A program made the translations under genes and the position numbers. The notes beneath the pieces were generated by a model. The model saw only the letters and a program-made list of their open reading frames with translations. It did not search any database and was not told the DNA's origin. A stretch of DNA of 8,779 nt from a bacterium (GTDB lineage: Bacteria > Bacillota > Clostridia > Oscillospirales > Acutalibacteraceae), in contig JAHKZS010000005.1 of assembly GCA_020626545.1 (NCBI GenBank), positions 1 to 8,779 on the forward strand, read 5' to 3'. Shown here piece after piece: positions 3,535-5,142 of the stretch; position 1 is the first letter of the stretch; each line of letters starts with the position of its first letter.

Positions 3535-3636
3535 TTATTTCCCGGCGTACAACGCTACTACCAGTATAGAACCCGCCATTAAAAGCGCGCAGACTATAGC
3601 TACTATACGCACAAAGAGCTTTTGTCTTTTGTTCAT
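3535..3636 (-). CDS. 33-residue single-pass membrane peptide
   Basis: The product is short: a basic start MNKRQKLFVR, then one hydrophobic helix of about 21 residues (11-31, IVAIVCALL... to ...VVALYA), ending Gly-Lys. By the positive-inside rule the amino end should face the cytoplasm. The case for a real gene is its position. An AGAGG site overlaps the stop codon of the upstream secreted protein, six bases before the ATG; the gap between the two genes is nine bases; and the terminator follows 20 bases later. It would therefore be translated from the same mRNA. I do not recognise a family, although tiny clostridial membrane peptides of this build are common. It could assist membrane insertion or export of the upstream product, but that is only inference from context. 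Confidence 0.65.
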   Translation of the reverse strand: MNKRQKLFVRIVAIVCALLMAGSILVVALYAGK

Positions 3637-3645
3637 TTTTAACCT

Positions 3646-5142
3646 CTACACCTTAAACGTAATATTGTAAGAATATTTTTTAGAAGAACCTATAACCTTA
3701 GCGGTAATCTTAGCGGTAGCTCTGCTGTGGCACTGTTTTATCCAGTAGGTACAGCTCGGACTCCAGCGGATAATATCGTACGGATCCAGTCCTTTCTGCT
3801 CCATTAACCATCCGCAGAATATAGCGCACCAGTTAGCAGCCGCGTAACAACCCATTATCTTTTTCCAGGCTTTAGTGTGGTTATAATAATTTCTTCCTCG
3901 TTTACCGATTTGCTTCTTAGCTAAATCGGCGAGCTTTTTCGCTTCTTTTCTCGAGGTGTACTGGGATAAATCTATAAAACCGACAATCTGGGAATTGTGT
4001 TTATAGTTTCTATAAACCTTTTTCGAAACGACAGATTTACGGTAGTCGTTCGCCTTAGTATTTCCCTCAATAGTAGTTATATTGTTTTTAGTAACCTTAT
4101 AAACGACTCCTACGTGATTCGCGAGGTAACCGTCATTAGTGTACCAATGGAAAAGTATAAAGTCGCCCTTTTTCGGAGTATAACGTTTCCTCTCCTTAAA
4201 GGCGGACACACTCTTACCCTTTACGTTACCATAGGAGGTTACCGAAGCTATATCGTCGTCCTTGGTCGAGTATTTTACGGGAGTTTGGGAAGAAAGGTTC
4301 TTCACCTTAAAGTAGCTATTAACGCTTTCTTTATAGTTCTTTAAGTAGAGCTGTCCCGAATACTTTTTGTTCTTCTTATAGCGGACGTTCTTATTCTTAA
4401 AGTTACCCGTATTATTTTTGCCCTTAAAATACTTTACGTAGTAGTTACCCTGAACGGAATAGTTCTCGGTTTTCTTAGAATAGGAAGCGACCTTATTAAT
4501 CTCGGTCTTTTCCTTTTGATCCAAGAAAAGTACCCACATACGCTCGGAGCCGACCTTGAGGTTAGCTATACCGCATGAGTTTACGGTTTCATCCTTGGCG
4601 TAATCCGAGGTCTTATACTTTTTATACAGATTCAAGTATGTAGCGCCTTTGGCAAAGATATACTTCTCGGGAAAACCGCCCGATACCTTTTTAGCGGAGA
4701 GCTTCTTGCTGTAATTTACAGCGAGCATAGCGGCTCTCTTATAAGCCTTTTCGGTTAACTCAACGTCATTTTTCAGTTTGTTAATTTCCTTAGAGCTTCT
4801 GTAAGAGTTTACGGAGTTAAGAACTTTTTTGTTGTACTGCTCAATAGTTGAGCCCTTTACCTTGAGCTTAGTTGTCGGAGATTTTACCGATTTTTTCTCT
4901 GTAGCGGGTTCGGTTTCCGCGGGAGTGGTCGTCTCAGGGACGGTTTCTTCCTCCGTAGAACTCGGTTCTGTTACCGCTTCGGTTTCAGAGGTTTCTGTTT
5001 CGACGGTTTCGGATACCGCTTCCGTCGGCTGAGTAACCCCGGTAGATTCAGTTTCTTCCACAGCGGAGTACGGCGTTACCATAAACACCGAAACAATCAT
5101 TACCGCCGCTATGATAAGAGAAACGGTTCTTTTAAAATGCAT
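3646..5142 (-). CDS. Secreted CAP-like protein with a rearranged CHAP-type peptidase domain
   Basis: A probable cell-wall or extracellular protein of 498 residues. A signal peptide (about 1-27, cleavage near YSA) is followed by a Thr/Ser/Glu-rich low-complexity linker (28-83). Residues about 103-210 resemble a degenerate CAP/SCP domain (VLNSVNSYRSSKEINKLK, CGIANLKVGSERMWVLFLD) without the usual His/Glu pocket. Residues about 289-315 look like a Big2-type fragment (VKYSTKDDDIASV). The last part has the motifs of a CHAP amidase/endopeptidase in inverted order: the half with TPKKGDFILF, NHVGVV (His343) and TTIEGNT (359-361) spans about 318-395, then the half with AKKQIG and NWCAIFCGW (Cys439) spans about 401-472. 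Such domains cut peptidoglycan peptides or amide bonds. The ribosome binding site is weak (AAGG, 11 bases away), but the next Met would destroy the signal peptide. A promoter lies directly upstream. Confidence 0.85.
   Translation of the reverse strand: MHFKRTVSLIIAAVMIVSVFMVTPYSAVEETESTGVTQPTEAVSETVETETSETEAVTEPSSTEEETVPETTTPAETEPATEKKSVKSPTTKLKVKGSTIEQYNKKVLNSVNSYRSSKEINKLKNDVELTEKAYKRAAMLAVNYSKKLSAKKVSGGFPEKYIFAKGATYLNLYKKYKTSDYAKDETVNSCGIANLKVGSERMWVLFLDQKEKTEINKVASYSKKTENYSVQGNYYVKYFKGKNNTGNFKNKNVRYKKNKKYSGQLYLKNYKESVNSYFKVKNLSSQTPVKYSTKDDDIASVTSYGNVKGKSVSAFKERKRYTPKKGDFILFHWYTNDGYLANHVGVVYKVTKNNITTIEGNTKANDYRKSVVSKKVYRNYKHNSQIVGFIDLSQYTSRKEAKKLADLAKKQIGKRGRNYYNHTKAWKKIMGCYAAANWCAIFCGWLMEQKGLDPYDIIRWSPSCTYWIKQCHSRATAKITAKVIGSSKKYSYNITFKV

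Follow-up and report, generated by a model that had tools for sequence, protein, structure and literature searches.

Can a CHAP domain whose two halves stand in the reverse of their usual order be one working enzyme, or is it the debris of a broken repeat? The question is raised by a 498-amino-acid protein encoded on the minus strand of an 8,779-nucleotide stretch of DNA (hereafter the window; positions 1 to 8,779 of contig JAHKZS010000005.1, assembly GCA_020626545.1) from a bacterium of the family Acutalibacteraceae, likely a gut Ruminococcus. In our view this is very probably a secreted protein in which a circularly permuted CHAP cysteine peptidase is inserted, by prediction, as a folded lobe in a loop of a Big_2 immunoglobulin-like (Ig-like) domain, and which likely still works as a peptidoglycan hydrolase.

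Order of the CHAP halves

In the translated open reading frame (ORF) the half with the histidine (His half, about residues 317-392) precedes the half with the cysteine (Cys half, about 401-473), with His343, the EGN motif (359-361) and Cys439 at the places given in the original prediction, which had been made from the sequence alone and had read them as a circular permutation. Searches for homologous proteins returned 20 proteins with the C-terminal part as query and 23 protein clusters with an alignment as query. His-before-Cys order was common to 22 of these clusters, i.e. the window's own (P0002) and 21 of the 22 others; the exception, P0024, is an ordinary-order CHAP matching a quarter of the query. 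As independent assemblies share the order, an assembly error is opposed.

Profile searches with the halves exchanged, as had been proposed, bore out the permutation, scores rising in all 22 family proteins. In the whole protein the Pfam CHAP profile (PF05257) matched residues 315-361 only (profile 39-81 of 81; 27.9 bits, above the cut-off of 26), and because in natural order it matches just the His half, such proteins are easily mistaken for partial domains. For residues 312-473 the score rose from 29.2 bits in natural order (profile 41-81) to 40.6 bits (profile 6-81) when residues 312-391 and 392-473 were exchanged, and swapping likewise raised the relatives P0021 and P0023 from 31.2 to 43.3 and 43.7 bits respectively. 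A further profile was built from about 71 ordinary-order CHAP rows from the fetched genomes (77 ordinary rows of a 90-row tree minus six long-branched ones), chosen with hidden Markov models (HMMs) of each half from the permuted family, a choice that could favour similar halves and builds in no order. Against it the 22 family proteins scored 65.6-83.8 bits in natural order, over profile 71-142 or 72-142, and 112.6-134.4 bits over nearly the whole profile once swapped, a gain of 45.8 to 58.2 bits in every case; 440 controls with the Cys half shuffled (20 per protein) reached at most 91.6 bits, under the lowest swapped score. Among rotations made every 10 residues, that at residue 80, adjoining the junction, scored best in 22 of 22.

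The Cys-before-His order of ordinary CHAP domains is thus reversed throughout the family and, on sequence grounds, the protein is a permuted variant of CHAP rather than an ordinary member. TIGR02594 stayed far under its cut-off of 70.55 bits, swapping fusing its matches into one stretch (18.9 bits, profile 13-115); PHROGs matches were to endolysin families across the His half, and a PDB sequence search found no relevant chain. The features of the gene are as follows.

3646-5142, minus: whole gene, 498 amino acids; signal peptide, Thr/Glu/Pro-rich linker, CAP-like domain and Big_2 domain with permuted CHAP insert (predicted)
5059..5142, minus: N-terminal hydrophobic segment, residues 1-28, likely signal peptide (end judged by eye; model helix 3-20)
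4876..5058, minus: Thr/Glu/Pro-rich linker, residues 29-89, mostly predicted disordered (predicted local distance difference test score <50 at 21-86)
4513..4857, minus: CAP-like domain, residues 96-210, under the Pfam cut-off
4210..4428, minus: first part of the Big_2 Ig-like domain, residues ~239-311 (predicted)
3973..4209, minus: His half of the permuted CHAP, residues 312-390, with TPKKGD, HVGVV and TIEGN (Pfam CHAP profile 41-81; half-HMM)
3952..3972, minus: joiner of the former C- and N-termini, residues 391-397 (in the model between strand 386-390 and helix 398-410; compare L046, below)
3724..3951, minus: Cys half of the permuted CHAP, residues 398-473, with AKKQIG, NWCAIFCGW and SPSC..WI (swapped Pfam and profile tests)
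3649..3723, minus: last part of the Big_2 domain, residues 474-498, RATAKITAKV...ITFKV (predicted)
4114..4116, minus: His343 codon, predicted catalytic histidine, invariant in 22/22
4066..4068, minus: Glu359 codon (EGN), invariant in 22/22
4060..4062, minus: Asn361 codon (EGN), invariant in 22/22
3826..3828, minus: Cys439 codon, predicted nucleophile, invariant in 22/22

Predicted fold, conservation and likely activity

Residues 312-473 are predicted to form one papain-like core of the permuted, His-before-Cys kind, in which the helix of Cys439 would pack on the sheet bearing His343 and Glu359/Asn361. With known permuted NlpC/P60 structures the predicted domain can be aligned along both halves, and with most ordinary CHAP structures over the His half only. 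In the structural alignment of the model, 11 of the first 12 VIA rows extend beyond Cys439; its viral 2A rows are presumably permuted relatives. The best match in BFVD, A0A8S5LWX4, a 303-amino-acid C51 protein of the phage Siphoviridae sp. ctabX13 (160 columns, 28% identity, E 3.9e-5), is possibly a tandem or permuted CHAP, judging from its modelled structure; a literature search on this phage yielded no paper.

The former termini would be joined by some seven residues (391-397), and the new termini would fall where, in an ordinary CHAP, the chain passes from the helix of the Cys half into the first strand (TPKKGD). Since such a cut opens a single connection, the new ends should be close together, which would suit insertion into an Ig loop, here predicted between GNVKGK and RATAKITAKV. 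The permuted CHAP is thereby, by prediction, nested in the Big_2 domain (PF02368; Pfam cut-off 22.8 bits, scored with the insert left out), behind a domain that is CAP-like in that its PF00188 score of 16.2 bits lies under the cut-off of 21.1. The secreted, CAP-like architecture had been recognised in the original prediction, which missed both the Big_2 nesting and the second permuted family described below. The Thr/Glu/Pro-rich linker is absent from the alignments of the shorter relatives P0016-P0023.

By analogy with ordinary CHAP enzymes, Cys439 would be the nucleophile and His343 the base, with Glu359 and Asn361 in support, and the activated cysteine would cleave an amide bond in the wall peptide, while anchoring or positioning the enzyme on the outside may fall to the CAP-like and Ig-like parts. 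We infer wall hydrolysis from this analogy. His343, Glu359, Gly360, Asn361, Trp438 and Cys439 are invariant in all 22 family proteins, upholding the claim that the Cys, His and EGN residues had been retained, and the Cys-His-Glu-Asn set of CHAP is present in each, as far as sequence goes, its geometry being predicted. Between the window and its closest relative (L054) the ratio of non-synonymous to synonymous substitution rates (dN/dS) is 0.047 for the His half, 0.054 for the Cys half, 0.046 for the CAP-like domain and 0.067 for Big_2; this pair is under purifying selection. At non-synonymous sites the two CHAP halves have each diverged less than the CAP-like and Big_2 domains in 8 of 9 pairs, the exception being the closest pair; in the other 8, which are more distant, synonymous sites are almost saturated.

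Some observations weigh against a working peptidoglycan hydrolase. The CAP-like part lacks His and Glu residues that are present in CAP paralogues of the genus and that we take to be the CAP tetrad, and the protein may therefore already include a domain without enzyme activity; the permuted CHAP fold could likewise serve as a binding module and not be an enzyme in practice. We regard this as improbable, given that the catalytic residues are invariant in relatives down to 44% identity in the domain. The structural alignments spanning both halves were best with the LRAT/PLAAT and YiiX groups, and permuted NlpC/P60 enzymes are described, in the abstract of PMC3142127, as having a hydrophobic S1 pocket, as might be expected of a permuted enzyme retargeted to lipids or acyl groups, like LRAT/PLAAT and YiiX, instead of wall peptides. 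Such retargeting is quite unlikely: the sequence is that of a CHAP by the Pfam scores in either order, its nearest relative in trees is an ordinary CHAP, neither LRAT/PLAAT (PF04970) nor C92 (PF05708) was matched at E <= 10 with the halves in either order (though weak matches may be lost to HMMER filters), and the structural likeness may come from shared order alone. Finally, that these are two unpaired half-domains, left by the decay of a tandem CHAP array and lacking a functional active site, the alternative offered in the original prediction, is hardly credible, for although arrays with decayed halves do occur in the genus (P0025-P0027, below), both halves are complete in the window family, catalytic residues are invariant, dN/dS is about 0.05, non-synonymous divergence is low in the pairs above, and no extra half, whether a Cys half upstream or a His half downstream, was detected in the 11 genomes with the gene. 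A permuted CHAP peptidase thus remains our preferred reading.

Distribution, relatives and possible origin

A full-length permuted relative with the same order occurs in 11 of the 161 genomes of the host genus, source genome included, so that the orthologues suggested as a check were indeed found. Ten named records (L054-L063) carry the permuted gene, seven of them Ruminococcus assemblies and three assemblies of uncultured Clostridia; red deer, Lapin and dairy cattle abomasum appear in their titles, and their contigs are those of the ten other positive genomes of the genus. An ORF census of 113 loci (duplicates kept) gave 70 in Cys-His order, 23 in His-Cys order (the window three times, the ten genomes and the same ten as named records), one His-Cys-His-Cys, 16 with the His half only and three with the Cys half only. 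No His-Cys order was seen outside the genus among matches in 200 family genomes (a few of them of the host genus), 394 order, 391 class and 398 phylum genomes (E <= 1e-3, 1e-9, 1e-9 and 1e-8 respectively), where at most 7 or 9 candidates per genome were scored and part of the matches were fetched as loci; this is weak evidence of absence outside the genus. Five candidates with matches running from His half to Cys half (G265, G266, G159, G171 and L087 of G372) proved on reading to be in ordinary order, as did L024, L079 and L109, in which only the His half had at first been detected. The Cys and His halves of ordinary CHAPs at L101 and L108 lie in different frames, suggesting frameshifted genes.

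Six phage and two plasmid records matched the permuted domain, none covering 80% of it, and none of the three phage records matching P0025 covered 80% of that protein. Of six viral-contig loci, five matched the profile in ordinary order over nearly its full length and the sixth is truncated where its contig ends; a search of viral contigs with query A4 gave no match.

With the halves put in the same order, the nearest relative is L046, a CHAP from the same genus with its halves in ordinary order (support 96/93 in the 90-row tree and 93/92 in a 45-row tree), in a 782-amino-acid protein of different architecture, with the Cys half at 489-557 followed by the His half at 565-628. The window family's own branch has support of 96/79 in the 90-row tree and 91/87 in the 45-row tree, where it is not starred. 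A second family in the genus, made up of three protein clusters (P0025-P0027, the latter two 87% and 79% identical to the first; L045 in G248), has a hydrophobic N-terminus and then the layout His-Cys-His*-Cys*. Like the window family it places an active-looking His half (DHVGIV and EGN in P0025) before an active-looking Cys half (WCAMF); unlike it, it continues with a degenerate His half and then a degenerate Cys half that is recognised only weakly (7 bits, half-HMM). In P0025 the second His half, though its similarity to the first is detectable (pairwise E 8e-6), lacks the HVG histidine and EGN (NAGII and VCGS), and the second Cys half lacks the WC motif. Neither P0025 nor P0027 has a CAP or Big_2 match. 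In the best trees the two permuted families do not pair as sisters, but a single origin was neither demonstrated nor rejected (approximately unbiased test, p-AU 0.171, 13 rows against 32).

From its sequence, the His-Cys-His*-Cys* layout could be a remnant of permutation through tandem duplication; no ordinary tandem Cys-His-Cys-His protein was present among the fetched ORFs. There is also a CAP protein that matches Big_2 weakly and lacks the CHAP insert. We raise, as a tentative and somewhat doubtful idea, that this clade holds a circular permutation in mid-course, from an ordinary CHAP (L046) through a tandem array with decayed partners to a finished permuted domain in an Ig loop, the path being tandem duplication, perhaps twice, and the product being kept since its ends, now brought close to each other, allowed insertion into the Ig domain. 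A permuted enzyme, an ordinary-order relative, a family with leftover duplicated halves and an insert-free CAP protein with a weak Big_2 match are here found together, so that the route and the cost of a natural circular permutation become testable with closely related sequences. We know of no close unpermuted relative of the known permuted papain-like families LRAT and YiiX. The locus also offers a natural case of how enzymes survive a half-swapping rearrangement, and a natural template for placing a wall hydrolase inside an Ig scaffold.

CAP paralogues with a different C-terminal part (L126, L127, L129-L134) occur in genomes of the genus, including G000, G306, G337, G309, G295, G322 and G312, which also have the permuted gene. 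In the window, the gene stands upstream of ribosomal-protein genes starting with rpsJ (names recognised by eye), and a 33-amino-acid ORF with one likely membrane span (MNKRQKLFVRIVAIVCALLMAGSILVVALYAGK; 3535-3636, minus) begins 9 bases past its stop. A similar small ORF lies 3' of the permuted gene at 6 of the 10 named loci (L054-L059), and rpsJ follows on the same strand, as in the window, at five (L054, L055, L056, L058 and L059), the contig of L057 ending before that position; neither was present (E <= 0.01 for the small ORF) in the DNA examined for L060-L063. The small ORF has matches (E <= 0.01) in 47 of the 161 genus genomes, of which just 7 also carry the permuted gene (present in 11), so the two do not have to go together.

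Comparison with known papain-like enzymes

The original prediction had stated that permutation is known in the wider NlpC/P60 fold and had named none for this CHAP architecture. In the available text of PMC10318531 the permuted members of the papain-like cluster are mainly C97, C92 and LRAT, and at none of the seven places where CHAP is mentioned is a permuted one named; no report of a permuted CHAP was found by title or abstract start among the matches listed in the open-licence PubMed Central (PMC) literature. The permuted NlpC/P60 enzymes, LRAT/PLAAT and YaeF/YiiX (C92), have His before Cys and the sheet half before the helical half, as in the window domain, but LRAT/PLAAT and C92 have no sequence match to it; as it is much closer by sequence to ordinary CHAPs, its permutation looks separate and more recent. 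RflaF_05439 of Ruminococcus flavefaciens shares duplicated papain-like modules (tandem NlpC/P60) in a Ruminococcus, but differs in being of ordinary order (Cys109, His215, Gln230), according to the portion of PMC3573020 at hand, within which a reference title names a Cys-His-Glu-Asn relay. The AcmB/LytN-like family is CHAP by a list in PMC10318531 and canonical in order by PMC3142127, as far as the available parts of both go. Ordinary CHAPs (PF05257; AcmB/LytN-like, LysK, LysGH15) belong to the same sequence family as the window's domain, sharing the GD motif before the first strand, HVG(I/V)V, EGN and WC, but place the Cys half first, whereas the window's CHAP has the His half first and a predicted seat within an Ig-like domain.
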